This document shows positions 1 through 5,625 of a stretch of DNA of 5,625 nt, piece by piece. The DNA is from Hippea sp. (lineage in GTDB: Bacteria; Campylobacterota_A; Desulfurellia; Desulfurellales; Hippeaceae). The translations under genes and the position numbers were made by a program. Location: NCBI GenBank assembly GCA_015486705.1, contig WFRG01000110.1, forward strand, positions 1 through 5,625, given 5' to 3'. The notes beneath the pieces are model-generated. The model did no database searches. It was not told the DNA's origin and saw only the letters and a program-made list of their open reading frames with translations. The first letter of the stretch is position 1. Each line of letters begins with the position of its first letter.

Positions 1-520
1 TAATTGAGCTTTTAAATCATGATATAACTTATAAGTGTATGATAGAGACTTGATTTTCTGATATATGGCACACGAGAGGTGCACCTTGCGTCTTCTTTAA
101 CCGGGACAAAAAAACATGCAAACTCGTTATGCAAAAAGTTTATTTTTTTGTGTATAAAAAAGAGAAGATCGCGCCCCCCTATGTCCCAGCCAGCTGGCTC
201 GCCTATAAGCGTATTATATCAAATTCAACCACTTGGGGCGAGAGGTTTAGGTCGAGTGTCTAAAATAACGCCGAATTTCGCGCGAGATTTTGAAATTCGA
301 TTAATTGTCGAATAAGGGTCGAGTTTGAGCTCTGAGGGGCGTTTCTGTTGATCTGAGAGTGTTTTAAAAGGCGGGTGGGAGACTTTTAGAAGTTTTTATT
401 GCTTAGGTGAGTCTGTAAGTTCATAGAGAATTTATTCTTTCGTGATAGAGGTAGTCTCTCCTTTTTTATTTTTTAAATAACAGAAATTTGGAATCTTAAT
501 AACTTTGGATCGTTGGGAAT
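1..520. other. Gene-free stretch left of the origin
   Basis: I see no convincing gene here. A GTG-started frame at 79-315 is open for 78 codons, but it has no recognisable domain, only a weak ribosome binding site, and a composition unlike the A/G-rich coding strands of the real genes. The stretch does contain small symmetric elements. There is a 12-bp palindrome, agccagctggct, at 188-199, and two overlapping stem-loops between 272 and 313. The octamer ggtcgagt occurs at 250-257 and again at 317-324. Around 160-205 there is a G+C-rich patch in otherwise A+T-rich DNA. No tRNA, rRNA or known riboswitch pattern was recognised. Confidence 0.6.
272..313. other. Two overlapping, mutually exclusive stem-loops
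   Basis: cgaatttc (272-279) is perfectly complementary to gaaattcg (292-299), giving an 8-bp stem with a 12-base loop. Directly overlapping it, attcga (295-300) pairs with tcgaat (308-313) around a 7-base loop. The two stems share bases 295-299, so an RNA crossing this region could form only one at a time. There is no downstream U-run and no gene directly after it. A role, for example in a small RNA or at an origin, is a guess. Confidence 0.35.
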
Positions 521-622
521 ATGGTTAGGAGGCGTTGTCTTGCTTGTTGTTCTTGCAAGAAAAAACTTGAGATTGATAAAGACTATGTGGTTTATAGGTG
601 GAGTGTTAGGAAAAATAAATAA
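521..622 (+). CDS. Doubtful 33-aa basic, cysteine-rich small ORF
   Basis: An ATG at 521 opens a 33-codon frame ending in TAA at 620-622. Its product would be very basic, with Arg at positions 3-5 and a Lys/Arg-rich C-terminus. It carries a compact cysteine cluster (Cys6, Cys9, Cys10, Cys12; C-x2-C-C-x-C) that could bind a metal such as zinc. I do not recognise a family. The ribosome binding site is poor (only ttggga upstream), and an in-frame stop at 500-502 rules out a longer start. It could be a genuine microprotein, the remnant of a zinc-finger protein, or chance. It lies alone in the non-coding region left of the origin. Confidence 0.22.
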   Translation: MVRRRCLACCSCKKKLEIDKDYVVYRWSVRKNK

Positions 623-896
623 ATTCGATCTATTTATCAGATTTTGATTTCCATTTATTCTTTATGGCAAAGCTATAGCGGAGTGCATCTGATTTTTTGT
701 TTAAAATAGAAAAAAACGACGACGAGTGGTGGGTGGGATAAAACGCTGATTCTGGTTGATAGTGATGTTAGGGTTGTGGTAGAGACTTGAGGTTGGTGAT
801 TCTTATTATATACGTTGTTGTTATTTTGTTTTTATTATTTGTTATATTGTTCTGGGGTAAGAATGGCGGTAGAATAGGAATTTCTGTTTTTAAAGT
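623..896. other. C-poor, G/T-rich origin-flanking region
   Basis: No gene was seen. By hand count, bases 731-900 of the + strand contain about 48 G but only about 10 C, a far stronger skew than in the genes. G-runs at 725-740 (agtggtgggtggga) precede ataaaac and resemble a degenerate iteron. The 11-mer tagagacttga at 780-790 also occurs at 43-53. Because it lies beside the iterons, this stretch is probably part of the replication origin rather than a decayed gene. Confidence 0.5.
801..850. other. A+T-rich block, candidate DNA unwinding element
   Basis: Only about 8 of these 50 bases are G or C by hand count, and the block is made of repeated T-rich words (ttattttgtt, tttattattt, gttatattgt). 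Iteron plasmids of the Rep_3 type normally have an A+T-rich melting region beside the iterons, and this block lies about 50 bases from the first one. The assignment is inferred from position and composition. I found no good match to a DnaA box (TTATNCACA) nearby. Confidence 0.4.
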
Positions 897-981
897 AAAC
901 AATAGTGGGGTGAAATAAAACAATAGTGGGGTTTAAATAAAACAATAGTGGGGTGAAATAAAACAATAGTGGGGTGAAATA
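897..981 (+). repeat. Four tandem iterons of the plasmid origin
   Basis: Four direct repeats with the shared core aaacaatagtgggg are spaced 21-22 bases apart, with units at 897-917, 918-939, 940-960 and 961-981. Units 1, 3 and 4 are identical (core followed by tgaaata). Unit 2 has tttaaata and is one base longer. A partial fifth copy (aaacattga) starts at 982. Tandem repeats of about 20 bp, about two helical turns, directly upstream of a Rep_3 initiator gene are the usual Rep-binding iterons. They act in origin opening and copy-number control. The binding itself is inferred from family knowledge. Confidence 0.93.
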
Positions 982-1002
982 AAACATTGATTAAAAAAAT
1001 GT

Positions 1003-1031
1003 TTGCAATATGTGTTTTTTTATGTTAATGT
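1003..1031 (+). promoter_or_regulatory. Possible rep promoter
   Basis: TTGCAA (1003-1008) and TAATGT (1026-1031) are 17 bases apart, which would place a transcript start near 1038, just before the rep ribosome binding site at 1048-1052. Both boxes are mediocre matches to the consensus. TTGATT at 987-992 with TATGTG at 1009-1014 is an alternative. Either would lie directly downstream of the iterons, so Rep bound there could repress its own gene. Confidence 0.3.
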
Positions 1032-1058
1032 TGCAAAAAAGTTTAGTAGGAGATGATT

Positions 1059-2255
1059 ATGACTAAAAGATATGTTGATACCTGCAAGGACTTGGTTGTA
1101 AGGAAGAGTGAGACGATAGTCAAGGCGAGATATAGACTTTCGCCTCTTGCGATAAAGTTTATCAGTGTAGTTATCGCCAATTTGAAGCGAAGCGATGACT
1201 TAAATCAAGAGTATGTAGTGAAAGTTAAGGATTTTCAGGAGCTAACGGGACAGAAAACAAAGAGGATATATGAGTTGATTGACGAAGCTTTGGAAAACCT
1301 TTTGACCAACCCTATAACCATACCCTTAGGTGATGAAAAAAATACAATTTTAAAAGCTAATTGGGTTAGCGGAGCTACTTATAACAAAGGTGAGGTTAGG
1401 TTTATGATCTATCCTAAACTTCGTCCTTTTCTGCTTGAGTTCAAAGAGAAGTATTTGACCTACAAGATAGAGAATATTTTGAGTTTAAGAGGTGATTACA
1501 CGGTTAGGATGTATGAAATTCTGAAAAATTGGCTTGAAACGAACAAAAGGTATGGGAGAAAAAAAGTTGAGAGGATTATAAGTGTAAGCGAGTTAAGGGA
1601 AATACTTGAAGTAACAAAAGGCTATCCTTACGGAGGTAGTTCGGGAGTAAAAACGAGAATTATCGAAAAAGCAAAACAGGAGCTAACGGAGAAAACAGAC
1701 ATAACTTTTGAGTACGAAGAAATAAAAACGGGGCGCAAGGTAACGCATATTAAATTTATCATAACAGACAACCCTAATAGTGACAGGAAACTAAGAAGTA
1801 ATAAGAGAAGGAGTGTAACTGCCGAAACCGTAATCCTGAGAGTGCCTGATGAGGTTAAAAACAGGCTTAAACGAGTTACAGACGAGCTTTTGAAGGAGAT
1901 TGATAGATATATAAACGAGTGTGGAATTGAGTATGTTGTAAGTAATATTGAGTATACAAATAAAAACGCAAAAGATAACTACGTGGCTTATCTAATAAGC
2001 GCTTTAAAGAATGATTGGGCTAAAAATATACGCGATAAGCAGGAAGAACAAAATAGATATGAACGTGCAAAGGAGGAATATAAGAAGTTTATAGGTAAGG
2101 TAATAGTTACAAGGAATGAAAGATATATTGTTGAAGAGAGTAGTATTTATCGTGAAAATGATAATTCTGCTATACCACTTGGAGATATCCTAAAAAACTG
2201 GGATAAGTGGCGACCGTTTCTTGAGAAAAAGGCAACCGAAACAGGAATGTTATGA
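1059..2255 (+). CDS. rep: Plasmid replication initiator, Rep_3 (RepB-like) family
   Basis: This is a Rep_3-family (PF01051) initiator that would bind the iterons, melt the origin and recruit host replication proteins. The N-terminal winged helix (about residues 10-130) shows the family pattern LVVRKSETIVKARYRLSPLA, followed by a helix containing FQELTGQKTKRIYELI. A second winged helix (about 135-235) contains ENILSLRGDYTVRMYEILKNW. A charged linker leads to a C-terminal helical part with AKDNYVAYLISALKNDWAK, seen in many such proteins. An ATG at 1053 is also in frame, but AGGAG at 1048-1052 touches it and lies 6 bases before the ATG at 1059, so I chose 1059 (398 aa). The length is normal to slightly long for the family. 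The gene is intact and follows the iterons. It is probably autoregulated. Confidence 0.93.
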   Translation: MTKRYVDTCKDLVVRKSETIVKARYRLSPLAIKFISVVIANLKRSDDLNQEYVVKVKDFQELTGQKTKRIYELIDEALENLLTNPITIPLGDEKNTILKANWVSGATYNKGEVRFMIYPKLRPFLLEFKEKYLTYKIENILSLRGDYTVRMYEILKNWLETNKRYGRKKVERIISVSELREILEVTKGYPYGGSSGVKTRIIEKAKQELTEKTDITFEYEEIKTGRKVTHIKFIITDNPNSDRKLRSNKRRSVTAETVILRVPDEVKNRLKRVTDELLKEIDRYINECGIEYVVSNIEYTNKNAKDNYVAYLISALKNDWAKNIRDKQEEQNRYERAKEEYKKFIGKVIVTRNERYIVEESSIYRENDNSAIPLGDILKNWDKWRPFLEKKATETGML

Positions 2256-2283
2256 GATTAGCGTTAAAACAACCTTTTATGAG

Positions 2284-2325
2284 AAGTGGCGCCACTTGAC
2301 GCCAAATTGGCGCTACATGGCGCCA
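2284..2325. promoter_or_regulatory. Array of three evenly spaced GGCGCC-type palindromes (likely operator)
   Basis: Three palindromic elements lie between rep and the RHH gene. They are a perfect 14-bp palindrome aagtggcgccactt (2284-2297), cgccaa-a-ttggcg (2300-2312) and tggcgcca (2318-2325). Their centres are about 15.5 bp apart, or 1.5 helical turns. The octamer tggcgcca occurs in both outer elements, and the whole array is roughly symmetric about 2306. It ends immediately before the GAGGTG ribosome binding site of the RHH gene, so a bound repressor would affect that gene's expression. In RNA the outer octamers could pair around the inner stem. A repressor operator, or less likely a centromere-like site, is the best reading. 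Confidence 0.65.
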
Positions 2326-2335
2326 GAGGTGAAAA

Positions 2336-2635
2336 ATGGGTGAATTGATAAGAAAAGGCTATAGAGTTGATGAAGAAACAGACGCAAAGATAAAAGAGCT
2401 GATGAATATGTATAATATGAAGTCTGAAAATGACTTATTTAGGGCTATTGTGAATGAAATTTATGAGCTGAAAAAAGGGAAAGCTCTCGTGCCTTTTGAA
2501 AAGTATGAGAATGAGAAGATACAATTACAGAAGGCTCTTTACGAAATAGGACGTCTAAAAGGTATTTTGGAGGAGAAAGAAAAACAATTACAGGAAAAGA
2601 AAAAAGGCTTTTGGGCTCGATTATTTGGTAGGTGA
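2336..2635 (+). CDS. Small ribbon-helix-helix-like DNA-binding protein with coiled coil
   Basis: This 99-residue protein begins with a pattern typical of ribbon-helix-helix (MetJ/Arc/CopG-type) proteins: a strand (residues 4-11, LIRKGYRV), helix A (about 13-27) and helix B (about 30-45, SENDLFRAIVNEIYEL). Residues 55-88 form a charged heptad-like coiled coil. The protein ends in a basic aromatic tail, KKGFWARLFGR. It would bind DNA as a dimer, most likely the palindrome array just upstream, and act as an autorepressor or copy-control/partition protein. GAGGTG (2326-2331) is its ribosome binding site. The next gene starts 4 bases after its stop, so the two are probably co-transcribed. The fold is inferred from sequence pattern. 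I cannot assign a named family, and no ParA or ParM partner is in the window. Confidence 0.65.
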   Translation: MGELIRKGYRVDEETDAKIKELMNMYNMKSENDLFRAIVNEIYELKKGKALVPFEKYENEKIQLQKALYEIGRLKGILEEKEKQLQEKKKGFWARLFGR

Positions 2636-2639
2636 TTAA

Positions 2640-2933
2640 GTGGAAGATATTGACTTCAGTAAAGTTGAATTTGAGTGGCATAATAAAAAAAGTGAGCGTA
2701 TAAAAGAAAAAAGAGGGTTGTCTTTTGATGAGATTGTTGAGAAAATTAGACAAGGAGCTGTTTTGGATATTCTGGACAATAGAGAGGAGTTTGAGGGGCA
2801 AAAACTGATGATCCTTGACATAGATGGTTATGTCTGGGCCGTTCCTTTTGAAAAGAGGGGAGGTAAGTTAAGGCTTGTAACGGCTTATCCAAGCCGTAAA
2901 TTTACAAAGATGTATTTAGGGGGTAAGAAATGA
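2640..2933 (+). CDS. BrnT/COG2929-like toxin of a type II toxin-antitoxin system
   Basis: This 97-aa protein resembles BrnT-type RNase toxins of the RelE-like fold. It opens with VEFEWHNKKSERIKEKRG and LSFDEI (residues 9-32), the usual F-x-W-D/N..K..N..KHG..F-like start. DIDGYVWAVPF (60-70) matches the central strands, and YPSRKFTKMYL (83-93) matches the C-terminal P-S-R-K-x-T-K signature of the BrnT-related proteins found beside CopG-type antitoxins. It would cleave mRNA and arrest growth when free. It uses a GTG start with AGGTGA (2630-2635) 4 bases upstream. Its stop overlaps the next gene by 4 bases (ATGA), giving toxin-first order and translational coupling. Identification is by motif, not by search. 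Confidence 0.68.
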   Translation: MEDIDFSKVEFEWHNKKSERIKEKRGLSFDEIVEKIRQGAVLDILDNREEFEGQKLMILDIDGYVWAVPFEKRGGKLRLVTAYPSRKFTKMYLGGKK

Positions 2934-3178
2934 GTGAAGATAGATACTATGACGACTTGGATGATTTCGAAAGAAGAATAGAGGAAAACGCCGAGAAATT
3001 CAAAAGGGTTGAAAATGTAGAGTATTGGAAGAAAGTTGTAGAAAAAGCGGCTGAGAATACTCTAAAAAAGAAGAAAATGCTTGTGCTTGAGTTTAAGAAC
3101 CAAGAGGATAAGGAAAAGGCTATTAGTATCTTAAGGGAAAATTTTGGCAAGGGGTTTGAGGTTGTAGGACCGGTTTAG
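2930..3178 (+). CDS. Probable antitoxin of the BrnT-like module
   Basis: This 82-aa protein follows the toxin with a 4-base overlap (ATGA) and has a strong ribosome binding site, AGGGGG at 2918-2923. The N-terminal half is acidic and helical (DDLDDFERRIEENAEKF, residues 8-24). The middle has KKVVEKAAENTLKKKK (34-49), which resembles the A-x-N-T-L-K-K segment of CopG-type antitoxins that accompany BrnT/COG2929 toxins. In that family the segment is normally followed by a ribbon-helix-helix strand and helices ending near YQTLI. Here the residues after LVLEFKNQEDKEKAISILREN (51-71) do not clearly match, so the DNA-binding part may be missing or diverged. The assignment rests on position, charge and this short motif. 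It ends 4 bases from the converging recombinase gene, with no terminator seen. Confidence 0.55.
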   Translation: MSEDRYYDDLDDFERRIEENAEKFKRVENVEYWKKVVEKAAENTLKKKKMLVLEFKNQEDKEKAISILRENFGKGFEVVGPV

Positions 3179-3182
3179 TTGT

Positions 3183-3812
3183 CTATATTAATCCCTTCTC
3201 CTTTAGTATCCCCTTCGCCTCTTGCCCGCTGATTTTCAAGTAGATGGCCGTCGTTGTTAGAGCTGAATGACCCAATAGGTCTTGGACTATAGTAACAGGA
3301 ACGCCAGCTCTAAGTAGCTCTATTGCCCTCGTGTGCCTGAGTATGTGCGAATGAGCTAATTCTCTTGGTATGCCCGCTTTTAGGCAAAGCTCCTTGAATA
3401 CCTTATTAAAGTTAGACCTATCGACTTTAAAGACCTTATCCCTCATGTGGGGATACTCTACAATATAGTTCGCTATCTCACTTGTTAGGTTAGAGGGTAC
3501 TGGGACTACTCTATACTGCCCTCGTTTCTTTGGATTATGTCTTTTGAGTGTTATAAGCCTTATTTCTGCGTTTCTGAAGTCTATATCCTCGTGCTTGATA
3601 TTTATTACCTCACTTATTCTTGCACTAGTAAATCTAAGAGTGAGAAAAACAAGCCAATAGCGTCCTCTTATGCGTCTTTTGGTGTTTGATATGCTTTTAT
3701 CGTCATACCAAGCCTGAAAGGTGGCTATAAGGTTGTTCAACTGGCTTTCTGTTAGGTAGTTAGGAATACTACCTGAAAAAACCAAATTGCCGTTTAAAGC
3801 CTTTGGCAGCAT
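3183..3812 (-). CDS. Short tyrosine recombinase (catalytic domain only, phage integrase/XerC-D type)
   Basis: This enzyme would cut and rejoin DNA at specific sites through a phosphotyrosine intermediate. All six active-site positions are present, numbering from the ATG at 3812 (209 aa): Arg65 in TSARISEV, Lys90 in the beta-hairpin (ITLKRHNPKKRG), His156 and Arg159 in HSHILRHT, His182 in LLGHS, and nucleophile Tyr191 in TTTAIYLK. About 85-100 residues of the usual N-terminal core-binding domain are missing, leaving only a short N-terminal leader before the catalytic domain. An ATG at 3818 is in frame, but AGGAG lies 1 base from it and 7 bases from the ATG at 3812, so the latter is preferred. 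Plasmid multimer resolution or site-specific integration are the likely roles. The substrate site is unknown, but the adjoining 3813-4002 region is a candidate. Confidence 0.85.
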   Translation of the reverse strand: MLPKALNGNLVFSGSIPNYLTESQLNNLIATFQAWYDDKSISNTKRRIRGRYWLVFLTLRFTSARISEVINIKHEDIDFRNAEIRLITLKRHNPKKRGQYRVVPVPSNLTSEIANYIVEYPHMRDKVFKVDRSNFNKVFKELCLKAGIPRELAHSHILRHTRAIELLRAGVPVTIVQDLLGHSALTTTAIYLKISGQEAKGILKEKGLI

Positions 3813-3849
3813 TAACATACTCCTTTTTTTACCATCTTACTTTTAAGAT

Positions 3850-3878
3850 AAAATAGTAAATATAAAAGAGAAAATCAA
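3850..3878 (-). promoter_or_regulatory. Putative recombinase promoter
   Basis: Read on the minus strand, TTGATT (3878-3873) and TATTTT (3855-3850) are separated by exactly 17 bases. Transcription would start near 3843, about 30 bases before the recombinase ATG, with its AGGAG in between. The -35 box lies inside the left copy of the 13-bp inverted repeat. This is a prediction from the consensus only. Confidence 0.5.
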
Positions 3879-3976
3879 TATTTTTTGAGAATAATAAGGC
3901 TTAATTCGACCTTACTTTGCAAGTAATTACCACACTATTTACATTTTGTGGCATTAATCTTCTAAATATTGATTTT
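3871..3976. repeat. 13-bp perfect inverted repeat flanking the divergent regulatory region
   Basis: aaaatcaatattt (3871-3883) is the exact reverse complement of aaatattgatttt (3964-3976), with 80 bases between the arms. Each arm contains a TTGATT that serves as the putative -35 box of an outward-facing promoter, leftward for the recombinase and rightward for higBA. The arms could be operators for one shared regulator such as HigA, or binding sites of the recombinase. Between them lie ttactt-tgc-aagtaa (3912-3926) and ccaca/tgtgg arms (3930-3934, 3947-3951). Confidence 0.65.
3912..3926. other. Short interrupted palindrome, possible recombinase or repressor site
   Basis: ttactt (3912-3917) and aagtaa (3921-3926) are perfect 6-bp inverted arms around tgc, near the midpoint (about 3923) of the 13-bp inverted repeat. 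Such a symmetric element between a recombinase gene and a TA operon could be a HigA operator or part of a recombination core site. No duplicate was noticed elsewhere in the window, so its role is open. Confidence 0.3.
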
Positions 3977-3996
3977 GTTATCATTTTTGGTAACAT
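3969..3996 (+). promoter_or_regulatory. Putative higBA promoter, possibly giving a leaderless mRNA
   Basis: TTGATT (3969-3974) and TAACAT (3991-3996) are 16 bases apart. This would start transcription at about 4003, the first base of the higB GTG codon. No Shine-Dalgarno sequence is visible before that codon. The imperfect palindrome gttatc/ggtaac (3977-3982, 3989-3994) covers the spacer and -10 box, a position suited to autorepression by the HigBA complex. TACTAT at 3996-4001 is another possible -10 box but is poorly spaced. Confidence 0.45.
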
Positions 3997-4002
3997 ACTA
4001 TA

Positions 4003-4341
4003 GTGAAGTGGAAAATAGAGTTTTTTAACGAAAAAGTCAAACAAGACACCTTAAACTTTCCTCCTAAGATGTTGGGAAAACTTTTGCATGTCTTTGAGCT
4101 AATAGAAAACTTCGGAGCTAATCTTGGTGAACCTTTTACAAAACCTTTAGGTAAAGGGCTGTTTGAAATAAGAGTGAAGTCAAGCGAAGGAATAGGCAGG
4201 AGTATATACTGCTACGAGAGGGGTAATAAAATAATAATTCTACATTCGTTTATCAAGAAAACACAAAAAACACCAAAGAAAGAACTTGAGATTGCTTTAA
4301 GTAGAAAGATGGAGGTGGATAATGAGCAGACCAACCTTTGA
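4003..4341 (+). CDS. higB: HigB-type toxin (phage-derived Gp49-like, RelE superfamily)
   Basis: This 112-aa protein fits the Gp49-like/HigB family (PF05973) of ribosome-dependent mRNA interferases. It starts KWKIEFFNE. It has the family segment KPLGKGLFEIRVK (residues 47-59), Arg66 in GIGRSIYCY, and the hallmark LHSFIKKTQKTP (80-91) followed by a helix with EIALSRKMEV. The toxin precedes the antitoxin, as is usual for higBA. The start is GTG at 4003, which gives the expected family N-terminus. There is no clear ribosome binding site, and the predicted transcript starts at or next to this codon. Its last 20 bases overlap higA, so translation of the two is coupled. Intact and of normal length. 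Confidence 0.88.
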   Translation: MKWKIEFFNEKVKQDTLNFPPKMLGKLLHVFELIENFGANLGEPFTKPLGKGLFEIRVKSSEGIGRSIYCYERGNKIIILHSFIKKTQKTPKKELEIALSRKMEVDNEQTNL

Positions 4342-4606
4342 AGAGTTTAAAAAAGAGGCTTTAAGCAATCCTGAAGTTAAAAAGGAATACGATAGACTGG
4401 CTCCTATTTTTAAGATAAAAAAAGAGCTCCTTTCCGCAAGGTTAAAGAAAGGGCTCACTCAAGAAGAAGTGGCAAAGAGAATGAAAACCTCAAAGTCAAA
4501 TATATCAAGGCTTGAGAGCCTTAATAACACCTATACTCCAAGTCTTAATACACTTATAAAATACGCAGAAGCCCTTGATTGTGAGATTGAGGTCTTTCTT
4601 AGGTAA
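4322..4606 (+). CDS. higA: HigA-type antitoxin, XRE/Cro-CI helix-turn-helix protein
   Basis: This 94-aa antitoxin partner of the preceding toxin would neutralise HigB by direct binding and repress the operon. The N-terminal third (FEEFKKEALSNPEVKKEYDRL, residues 6-26, split here as FEEFKKEALS and NPEVKKEYDRL) is typical of this antitoxin group. An HTH_3 domain follows, with LTQEEVAKRM and TSKSNISRLES (residues 45-66) as the helix-turn-helix, then PSLNTLIKYAEALDCEIEVFL. The ATG at 4322 has an excellent ribosome binding site, GGAGGT (4311-4316), while the toxin has almost none. This would give more antitoxin than toxin. Possible operators lie in the intergenic region before higB. Confidence 0.9.
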   Translation: MSRPTFEEFKKEALSNPEVKKEYDRLAPIFKIKKELLSARLKKGLTQEEVAKRMKTSKSNISRLESLNNTYTPSLNTLIKYAEALDCEIEVFLR

Positions 4607-4642
4607 AACGCGCCTAATTTCGTGTAAACGCTCTTTTTGCTA
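4606..4642. repeat. Diverged outer copy of the IS256-type terminal sequence
   Basis: atttcgtgtaaacgctcttttt (about 4617 onward, here split as atttcgtgtaaacg and ctcttttt) aligns with atttt-gtgtaagcaccctttttc at 4695 onward, with about six mismatches in 26 positions. The GTGTAA cores are at 4622-4627 and 4700-4705, 78 bases apart in the same orientation. It starts directly after the higA stop. It looks like a leftover end of a second, related insertion. Confidence 0.5.
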
Positions 4643-4681
4643 AGTAGTATCGTAGGAGTATAGAGAAGAAAGATTTAACCG

Positions 4682-4720
4682 GAGACCGTCCCCGATTTTG
4701 TGTAAGCACCCTTTTTCTTA
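4682..4720. repeat. Terminal inverted repeat (3' end) of the IS256-family element
   Basis: gagaccgtccccgattttg followed by tgtaagcacc resembles the known IS256 terminus, with GTCC near the tip and TTGTGTAA further in. It lies just past the 3' end of the transposase fragment, where the element's right end is expected. The outer tip is probably near 4682. The opposite end is not in the window, because the element is cut off near 5221. Confidence 0.55.
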
Positions 4721-4738
4721 GACTCATTATACATAATT

Positions 4739-5221
4739 TCACCTGATATATCCACTAAGCCTGTCTTTAAAAACAATGGAAAACTGGGAGATAATTTCAG
4801 CCCAATTTGATATTGTTTTCTGCCATTTTGCAGATATATCCCTATATGCTAAAAACACCAACCTAATCAATGATTCATCACTACTAAACCCTCCTTTTGT
4901 TTTTGTTATTTTTCTGACTTGCCTGTTAAAGCCCTCTATGGTATTGGTTGTGTAGATAATTCTCCTTATCGGTTCTGAATACTCAAAGTAGGCTGATAAC
5001 TCATCCCAGTTATTAATCCATGAGTTTACAACCATAGGGTATCTTTCTTTCCATTTCTGCTCCAATTCAGCCAAAGCTTCTTCTGCTGCTTTCTTTGTAG
5101 GAGCTTTATAGACTCTTTTTAAATCAACCATGAACTCTTTCTGGTATTTTGAGCCTACATAATTCATGGAGTACATGATTTGATGAATGTCATCCGCCTT
5201 GCTAAAATACACCACCAACAC
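4739..5221 (-). pseudogene. C-terminal fragment of an IS256-family (transposase_mut) transposase
   Basis: About 160 of the usual roughly 400 residues remain. The best-preserved part is IIYTTNTIEGFNRQ (residues 88-101), which carries the Glu (E96) of the DDE catalytic triad. It is followed by TKTKGGF, FLAYRDISAKW and SNWAEIISQFSIVFKDRL, all typical of the family's C-terminus. The N-terminal domain and both catalytic Asp residues are missing, so it cannot transpose by itself. The first residues (YFSKADDIHQIMYSMNYVGSK) look like the family's PKAD..C..HQIRNS..YV segment with a few residues lost, including the Cys. A stop codon in frame at 5222-5224 marks the break. The GTG at 5219-5221 is probably not a real start. 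An IS21-type element lies just beyond the break and may have caused it. Confidence 0.88.
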
Positions 5222-5408
5222 CTACTAAAACTACACCACCTTTAGTGATTATTTTTTCACTTATCCAAACAAAAGTGACGATTGATGTGTAGATAGAGTG
5301 TAGATAAAAATGAGTCAATCATCACCGGATGATCCTTGTTAAAACAGTGTTAAAGTCAACCAAAAATCCCCACCTTTGGGTCATTTAAATTCCCCACCTC
5401 TTGGATTG
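5222..5408. other. Junction between IS256 remnant and IS21-type element
   Basis: There is no gene here. Several short inverted arms are present: actaaa/tttagt (5224-5229, 5241-5246), agtga/tcact (5244-5248, 5257-5261), and a tight hairpin atcatc-accg-gatgat (5318-5333). The 9-mer gtgtagata is repeated at 5287-5295 and 5298-5306. The boundary of the IS21-type element must lie somewhere in this stretch. IS21 ends normally begin with TG, and several TG positions are possible, so I cannot fix it. Confidence 0.5.
5367..5404. repeat. Repeated terminal motifs of an IS21-family element
   Basis: tccccacctttgg (5367-5379) and tccccacctcttgg (5391-5404) are near-identical direct repeats about 24 bases apart. 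Each is preceded by a T/A-rich block that begins with gtca (gtcaacc at 5356, gtcattt at 5380). Multiple short repeats just inside the ends, next to the istB stop codon, are characteristic of IS21-family termini and are bound by the IstA transposase. Confidence 0.6.
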
Positions 5409-5625
5409 TCAATTTATGTTCTCTTGATTATCCTTTGCCTCCTTTAGATGCTTAATCCTATAACTCTCCCCTGTTATCTTGAATATATGGCAGTGATGGA
5501 CAAGTCTGTCAACTATGGCAGAGGCCAAAACGGCATCTGAGAATATACTCCCCCACTCCTCAAATGGCCTATTTGTGGTGATTATAATTGACCCCTTCTC
5601 ATACCTTCTCCTTATCACCTCAAAG
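5409..5625 (-). CDS. istB: IstB-like ATP-binding transposition helper (partial, 3' end only)
   Basis: Only the C-terminal part is visible, and the frame stays open through the window edge, reading FEVIRRRYEKG at the start. The segment SIIITTNRPFEEWGSIF and the following DAVLASAIVDRLVHHCHIF and GESYR are the conserved C-terminal third of IstB, the AAA+ ATPase of IS21-family elements. TNRP includes the sensor-type Asn after a beta-strand, and the DRL..H region forms part of the lid. IstB helps the IstA transposase choose its target. The Walker A and B motifs lie outside the window. The stop is followed by the element's terminal repeats. The visible part is undamaged. Confidence 0.92.
   Translation of the reverse strand, partial: FEVIRRRYEKGSIIITTNRPFEEWGSIFSDAVLASAIVDRLVHHCHIFKITGESYRIKHLKEAKDNQENIN

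Follow-up and report, generated by a model that had tools for sequence, protein, structure and literature searches.

What does a free-standing ribbon-helix-helix (RHH) gene do at the head of a BrnT-type toxin-antitoxin (TA) pair? The question is raised by a stretch of 5,625 nucleotides from Hippea sp. (assembly GCA_015486705.1, contig WFRG01000110.1, positions 1 to 5,625 of the forward strand), which was analysed over its whole length and is called the window. On its forward strand, a gene for an RHH and coiled-coil protein of 99 residues (2336-2635) is followed by a BrnT-family toxin gene (97 residues, GTG start, 2640-2933) and by a gene for an antitoxin of 82 residues (2930-3178), and a putative operator or centromere-like array of four boxes (2287-2325, no strand assigned) lies ahead of the three genes. 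The initial annotation had read them as a possible three-component system dedicated to the BrnT pair. We find that relatives of the RHH gene precede TA pairs of several kinds, and that homologues of the BrnT pair do without an RHH gene. We consider it somewhat probable that the RHH protein is a self-repressing, centromere-like plasmid regulator which governs an exchangeable TA cassette, the whole being a plasmid-maintenance operon behind a Rep3 rep gene.

Toxin-antitoxin cargo of the RHH relatives

The profile of the RHH protein was widened stepwise (A2, A8, A9, A10) and yielded two groups of relatives, one solitary and chromosomal, the other mobile, carried by contigs that also hold rep or serine-resolvase genes, or set in unclear surroundings. 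Counts were made over 17 mobile loci at which 600 bases or more follow the RHH-coiled-coil gene, after exclusion of a broken gene (L111), the second copy of L113, three loci at contig ends (L146, L155 and L156) and the interrupted genes of genomes G004, G028 and G030. The contexts described here cover named loci, the wider profile listing many weaker RHH matches.

A TA pair comes next on the same strand at 9 of the 17 mobile loci, or at 6 of 14 when near relatives (L113/L114 and L149/L150/L152) are merged. Five kinds of pair were observed: DUF4258/DUF2283 (G065 C58, G065 C189 and G158 C119), a HEPN/MNT-like pair (G095 C162), HicB/HicA (G001 C168), VapB/VapC (G070, G071 C166 and G075) and, at the ninth locus, the BrnT toxin of the window with its new antitoxin. 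An association between RHH genes and TA pairs was thus found, and it is not specific to BrnT. Since the regulator is constant and the cargo varies among relatives, the regulator appears to belong to the plasmid or mobile element.

The assignment of these pairs differs in firmness. The DUF4258 cut-off is passed in L114 and not in L113 or L115, the HicB of G001 (L109) aligns to no more than positions 11-52 of a HicB profile 123 positions long and stays below the cut-off, and the VapB proteins have no Pfam match. The names MNT-like and VapB, the second gene of the L157 pair and the genes of the G genomes that lack a Pfam call were assigned by eye. An antitoxin without a recognised DNA-binding domain is present at six of the nine TA loci, and a Rep3 gene lies directly upstream of the RHH gene in the window, in G095 (L112) and in G001 (L109). 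When the longest frames are taken, the next gene begins between 47 bases inside the RHH gene and 4 bases after it in six of the nine cases, and 96-101 bases after it at the three VapBC loci. Frames that overlap or lie at most 4 bases apart in these six cases, together with an array at the ribosome-binding site, make one transcript likely.

Other arrangements were also seen. The solitary chromosomal RHH-coiled-coil gene, whose product ends in WFF, is conserved in one phylum (L058-L060, L063, L064, L066, L068-L071); it often stands beside CoA-ligase-like and methyltransferase-like genes (named by eye), without TA genes, and its RocS-like architecture makes a nucleoid function possible. At L147, L150 and L152, the RHH gene is flanked by resolvase-like genes (Pfam-confirmed in L150) and a TnpB-like gene (by eye; no Pfam match in L147). 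VapBC also lies between the flanking genes of L150 and L152, and at such loci the regulator and the TA pair may sit inside a transposon. At L040 (G097), a rep gene is followed by short DUF4258-like and DUF2283-like genes (by eye) with no RHH gene between.

Relation of the RHH gene to the BrnT pair

Homologous toxin/antitoxin pairs stand without an RHH gene in front at all 11 loci with readable upstream DNA, which form eight groups (L001, L002, L003, L016, L017, L018, L019, L020, L021, L023 and L026; L002/L016 and L018/L019/L020 are near copies). Two loci cut by contig ends (L022, L027) and three weak matches (L024, L025, L028) were left out of this count. The RHH-less pairs come from Desulfurellales, Desulfurobacterium, Thermodesulfatator and other genomes. 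A set of 136 genomes from the same phylum as G002, a Desulfurobacterium genome, contains 11 that match the antitoxin profile and 5 that match the close RHH profile, and no genome matches both. When the RHH profile is widened, 23 and then 50 of the 136 match, and G012, G014 and G119 are shared with the antitoxin list, on which G012 and G014 stand through marginal matches only. On the 17-kb contig of L109 (G001 C168), the BrnT pair stands alone and the RHH gene lies apart, heading the HicBA pair.

These contexts bear directly on the proposal that the DNA-binding half of the window's BrnT antitoxin has split off as the RHH protein, which would work only with that antitoxin. The gene order of the window, the 4-base gap and the 4-base overlap agree with this proposal, as do an antitoxin without RHH and a 6260-base contig that may hold the RHH relative P0047 together with the TA remnant P0023. 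Nevertheless, the RHH gene is absent before the homologous pairs at every readable locus, stands apart from such a pair on L109 and, through its relatives, heads four further kinds of TA pair. The genomic contexts thus largely refute a dedicated BrnT system, which we regard as quite improbable. As the pair occurs elsewhere without the RHH gene, the missing RHH of the antitoxin is a property of its family and not a consequence of a nearby regulator.

Phased arrays upstream of the RHH genes

As the initial annotation proposed, the RHH gene stands free at the head of the cluster and has a phased, operator-like array of its own. The array, initially read as three palindromes, is better described by four boxes: TGGCGCCA at 2287-2294, TGACGCCA at 2297-2304, TGGCGCTA at 2308-2315 and again TGGCGCCA at 2318-2325. 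Two of them are exact copies of TGGCGCCA and the other two differ from it by one mismatch. The box starts are spaced 10, 11 and 10 bp, and this one-turn spacing would place the four sites on one face of the DNA helix. The position claimed for the array stands: it ends 10 bases before the first ATG of the RHH gene and abuts the likely ribosome-binding site.

A search of the whole window for the octamer TGGCGCCA with up to one mismatch finds four copies, all in the array, against 0.52 expected, and 1 of 200 shuffles reaches this number. The chain score, which follows 7-mers at 10-12-bp steps through the 150 bases before the gene, was not attained by any of 400 dinucleotide shuffles. Half-sites of the TGGC/GCCA type number six in 42 nt, compared with a maximum of four in 300 shuffles. 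A cruder count of repeated 7-mers was weaker, 2 of 60 shuffles equalling the array.

As single-stranded nucleic acid, 2280-2330 folds with -23.1 kcal/mol (z -3.77), and none of 200 shuffles folds as well, which would suit a leader hairpin controlling translation or termination at the RNA level. However, palindrome arrays always fold, the arrays of L114, L115 and L148 consist mainly of direct repeats, and no terminator-like site was found. Such an action is very improbable.

One fixed protocol (chain score, 400 shuffles per locus) was then applied to 15 mobile and 12 chromosomal RHH loci and to nine RHH-less toxin starts, among which L025 has an RHH-type antitoxin and L022 offers only 115 bases upstream. 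A chain score of at least 25 was obtained at 11 of the 15 mobile loci, compared with none of the 12 chromosomal loci and none of the nine toxin starts; among 400 150-mers drawn at random from the fetched loci, 7 reached it. Scores reached by at most 4 of 400 of their own shuffles were found at 8/15, 1/12 and 0/9, respectively. The chromosomal locus L064 gave 3/400 under this test; L059, with an AT-rich box, exceeded its 100 shuffles in an early octamer statistic and gave 75/400 under the fixed test. Phased arrays are therefore mostly a property of the mobile RHH genes.

The closest array, that of L110, has TGACGTCA-type boxes which are also spaced 10/11/10. The box sequences are otherwise locus-specific, with TGGCGCCA in the window, TGACGTCA-like boxes in L110, GCTATC in L112 and L113, CTATACA in L115, ATCTTTA in L148 and TGTATTA in L153. 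A shared architecture with private box sequences is the pattern expected of co-evolving operators or centromeres.

The position of the array also bears on a CopG-like control of copy number, in which the RHH protein would act on rep and the array would close the rep operon as an operator or a transcriptional roadblock. The array and the RHH gene start 31 and 80 bases downstream of rep, and a rep gene is directly upstream in L109 and L112 too. On the other hand, this places the array downstream of rep, away from the rep promoter, the window holds no other box at up to one mismatch, and in L147, L150 and L152 the RHH gene adjoins a serine-resolvase gene, with no rep recognised in the fetched stretch. 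We consider copy-number control improbable.

The RHH coiled-coil protein

From its sequence, the head protein appears to consist of an RHH domain, a coiled coil and a MinD-like tail. The AF2 model has helices at residues 13-25, 31-48 and 54-97, with a mean pLDDT of 74 and a pTM of 0.37, and its weak fold matches are mostly RHH repressors or antitoxins, in addition to plant TCP-domain chains. The window protein itself has no RHH match in Pfam; its relatives L029, L033, L034, L115 and L148, found by profile, pass RHH_1. The RHH identity rests on these relatives together with the weak fold match, and by this route the assignment made in the initial annotation is supported. L112 was counted as RHH by its similarity to L115 and L149.

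The C-terminal tail KGFWARLFGR (2603-2632, forward strand) is identical at 7 of 10 positions to the membrane-targeting sequence KGFLKRLFGG of E. coli MinD, and a similar tail is kept in the 20 close relatives, with the exception of P0050. It may bind the membrane. Its hydrophobic moment is not above that of shuffled sequences, a fraction of 0.57 of which reach it.

The tail and the coiled coil suggest more than repression, since RocS and pSK1 Par serve segregation with a like architecture. The RHH protein might accordingly act alone in segregation or tethering: the array would be a centromere, the coiled coil would oligomerise, the tail would hold the plasmid to the membrane, and the TA pair would be independent. 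RocS and pSK1 Par combine a DNA-binding head, a coiled coil and a MinD-like C-terminus (PMC11500499), and the 10-12-bp pitch of the arrays resembles that of the stbDRs (PMC3098194). The conserved likeness of the tail to MinD points the same way, as do the missing ParA/ParM match among the nine window proteins scanned and the eight of 17 RHH loci without a recognised TA pair. Against this, the head is an RHH and not a winged helix-turn-helix (HTH), no DUF536 match was obtained for the window protein or the relatives scanned, the hydrophobic moment of the tail is ordinary, and the overlapping or abutting frames in six of nine TA cases favour one operon. Segregation by the RHH protein alone is a serious but doubtful explanation; it is compatible with an operon regulator rather than exclusive of it.

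The two functions could also be joined in a single-protein plasmid tether (RHH, phased centromere, coiled coil, membrane tail) that doubles as the switch of a plug-in TA cassette. This bolder combination we hold to be rather unlikely. If true, occupancy of the centromere would set both plasmid anchoring and antitoxin supply from one array, and each plasmid would keep a private box sequence while swapping toxins.

Searches of other collections gave few matches. Neither the RHH protein nor the antitoxin of the window matched anything in the defence and phage family libraries, and the RHH protein was not found in viral contigs. In named plasmids, the queries from the window, L039, L109 and L115 returned no RHH gene, and the L034 query returned one match, in Aquifex ece1, where the gene is interrupted by a stop. 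The RHH profile matched 3 of 297 genomes of the phylum of G003, weakly, and 3 of 25 in that of G001.

The BrnT-family toxin and its antitoxin

The initial annotation placed a BrnT-like toxin 4 bases behind the RHH gene and an antitoxin-like gene at a 4-base overlap with it, and both the coordinates and PF04365 bear this out. The toxin passes PF04365 narrowly, with 36.1 bits against a cut-off of 34.5, and 10 of 11 members of its family match this model at 1e-3; judged by sequence, the assignment to BrnT is real. Aligned to the toxin structure 7vd7, the window toxin has KRG (residues 24-26) where 7vd7 has KHG. Arginine replaces the histidine at residue 25 in most close relatives as well, and KHG is kept in L021 and L026. 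The SRK motif is invariant among the 11 family members. In BrnT, the catalytic residues are K16, H17 and R72, and the His of KHG is reported to be important (PMC13284704). With this His replaced by Arg, RNase activity of the window toxin cannot be assumed, and the KRG variant may have either an altered active site or a different target. The toxin matches two PHROGs families, one of them named ribonuclease toxin, and 43 plasmid records, every one below 60% identity; none was found in viral contigs.

The antitoxin belongs to no family in Pfam or NCBIfam. None of 22 members of its family matched CopG or BrnA models at E 0.1, whereas the RHH-type partners of related toxins (L004-L008 and L025) matched them in six of six cases at E ≤0.003, two above the cut-off. 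Comparison with a profile of RHH-type antitoxins aligned columns 14-65 (of 88) to columns 3-56 (of 96) with a probability of 96.7%; the alignment covers the N-terminal half and the first strand and ends before the RHH helices. In the low-confidence model of the antitoxin, one helix (58-75) lies past residue 50, between two extended stretches, which leaves too little length for a second RHH helix. The model and the end of the profile alignment led us to reject a diverged RHH in the C-terminal half, and the claim that the antitoxin lacks an RHH part is upheld. The protein thus has no recognised DNA-binding domain, and its C-terminal half may still be a new DNA-binding fold. Its N-terminal half is as in BrnT/CopG-type antitoxins and would bind the toxin.

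The window antitoxin was not found in phage records or viral contigs, the antitoxin profile A4 gave nothing in genome contigs, and the L002 antitoxin, searched in named plasmids in place of that of the window, gave no match. In 297 genomes of the phylum of G003, the antitoxin profile matched 17; the G003 locus already known gives the one strong match, and all others have E >1e-5. Three metagenome proteins are chimeric: P0021 and P0022 join the antitoxin N-terminal half to a HicB-like stretch (by eye), and P0023 joins a toxin N-terminal half to an antitoxin C-terminal half. They fit recombination between TA cassettes.

Proposed mechanism

In the mechanism that we favour, RHH dimers would line up on one helix face over the four boxes at 2287-2325 and repress their own operon, whose cargo would be a BrnT-family toxin and an antitoxin binding it by its N-terminal half. 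The TA pair would be a plug-in cassette with its dosage following a regulator that would itself be part of the plasmid or mobile element. Upon loss of the plasmid, the supply of antitoxin would stop and the toxin would be freed.

Several points weigh against this mechanism. Beyond the gene order, homologies, phased arrays and cargo exchange that we observe, it calls on steps that we infer, namely co-transcription, DNA binding, repression, toxicity, neutralisation and a role in partition. A scan of 2100-3250 for sigma-70 consensus promoters gave a single site, at 2496, and so none near the array; the shuffle mean is 2.9. The structure models are weak (pTM 0.32 and 0.37), and three of the key relatives, L109, L110 and L112, do not themselves match an RHH family in Pfam. 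Among the listed proteins, the contig with P0047 and P0023 is the only one that may repeat the BrnT version of the operon, which may thus be rare. At the three VapBC loci, the antitoxin is RHH-type by eye and the gap amounts to about 100 bases, so that separate control is likely there.

The counts themselves also set limits. By their own shuffles, 8 of the 15 mobile arrays stand out; L116 and L151 score at least 25, yet 21 and 17 of 400 shuffles do too, and the chain-score test gives no array at the mobile loci L154 and L157. The figure of 9 in 17 is a raw count, uncorrected for any background rate at which TA pairs follow other genes on such contigs, and at the remaining eight loci, as judged by reading, no TA pair was recognised behind the RHH gene. 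The next gene was compared with known families at five of these loci: three (L110, L147 and L148) gave nothing, L116 gave an HD domain, and L151 gave an HTH gene, perhaps a lone antitoxin, which lies 213 bases further on and close to the end of the contig; G010, also among the eight, has a DUF4258 pair in divergent orientation.

Plasmid context of the window

The window is plasmid DNA. Upstream of the operon, the Rep3-family replication initiator (1053-2255, forward strand, 400 residues) matches Pfam Rep3_N at 3e-28 and Rep3_C at 1.5e-15. It is preceded on the same strand by 4.2 tandem copies of a 21-bp repeat (897-986; Tandem Repeats Finder score 164), which, given the Rep3 family, are probably the iterons of a replication origin and are distinct from the array at 2287-2325. 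The nearest Rep proteins in named plasmids are those of Nitrosophilus labii (55%) and Nitratiruptor (54%), and no RHH gene is annotated behind rep in these plasmids. The window resembles pieces of the Desulfurellales metagenome genome G001, with 83% over 204 bases of the RHH gene. The scan for ParA/ParM covered nine proteins of a window of only 5.6 kb; ParA was not found among ten proteins from contigs of four relatives either.

Four further features lie downstream. A tyrosine recombinase of 211 residues (3183-3818, reverse strand) matches XerA/XerD models only in the catalytic part, from profile position 92, and either lacks its N-terminal arm or is a short-type recombinase. A second TA pair (4003-4606, forward strand) consists of a Gp49/HigB-like toxin and an HTH antitoxin with a 20-base overlap and is of ordinary HigBA type. 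Two insertion remnants follow on the reverse strand, namely a C-terminal piece of a Mutator-family (IS256-type) transposase (4739-5221) and a C-terminal piece of an IS21 IstB protein (5409-5624), the latter ended by the window edge.

Comparison with known systems

In type II TA operons, control normally lies with the antitoxin of the operon itself. In the family described here, control appears to be seated in a separate mobile-element protein that stands before several unrelated toxins. Separate TA regulators are already known from omega-epsilon-zeta and paaR-paaA-parE, and RelS-RelI is a known case of a BrnT-like toxin whose antitoxin is not of the RHH kind. Neither an RHH-coiled-coil family heading several TA kinds nor the antitoxin family was found in an open-access library, most subscription papers being outside this scope. 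If true, the favoured mechanism would explain regulated plasmid TA pairs whose antitoxins are without DNA-binding domains, and an RHH-coiled-coil gene with a phased array would serve as a marker in the search for new TA pairs. A second, independent novelty is the antitoxin family with its replaced C-terminal half, which shows BrnT-binding and DNA-binding parts to be separable in evolution.

Omega is not known to have a coiled coil or a MinD-like tail. The omega-epsilon-zeta system of pSM19035 shares with the window a separate RHH head gene, repeats at its own promoter and a TA pair behind, and omega is both centromere binder and repressor (PMC4803016, PMC5016525). It differs in its unrelated toxin and antitoxin, in the ParA (delta) with which omega works, in its heptad boxes and in that omega, in the available text, is tied to one TA pair, whereas the window RHH family precedes several. 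The parallel drawn in the initial annotation thus holds for the logic, RHH genes preceding five TA kinds, and not for a partnership with BrnT. In paaR2-paaA2-parE2, the head gene likewise regulates transcription and the antitoxin has no detectable DNA-binding motif, but PaaR2, which belongs to the immunity region of a prophage, is of the HTH kind and the toxin is ParE-like (PMC8630535, PMC4803016). The window trio includes neither a zeta kinase nor a ParE toxin, its toxin being of BrnT type, so that the logic is shared and the families are not.

On the toxin side, BrnT/BrnA has the PF04365 toxin and the toxin-first order, but BrnA carries a C-terminal RHH and controls its operon (PMC11980606), whereas the window antitoxin is without RHH and the toxin has KRG for KHG. 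RelS-RelI of M. tuberculosis has a BrnT-like toxin fold and an antitoxin outside the RHH kind; RelI forms dimers through a short coiled coil and has two short helices at its end, and the available text reports no separate regulator (PMC13284704).

On the plasmid side, pSK1 Par and RocS share the three-part architecture and act as single-protein segregation factors with no known motor, but they have a winged-HTH head and DUF536, and no TA cargo is mentioned in the available text (PMC11500499). StbA of R388 binds the stbDRs, 9-bp repeats spaced by 2 that lie upstream of its gene and are needed for stability; its operon is stbABC, linked to conjugation (PMC3098194). Finally, the type Ib partition proteins omega and ParG resemble the window protein in being RHH proteins with a repeat array upstream of their own gene.

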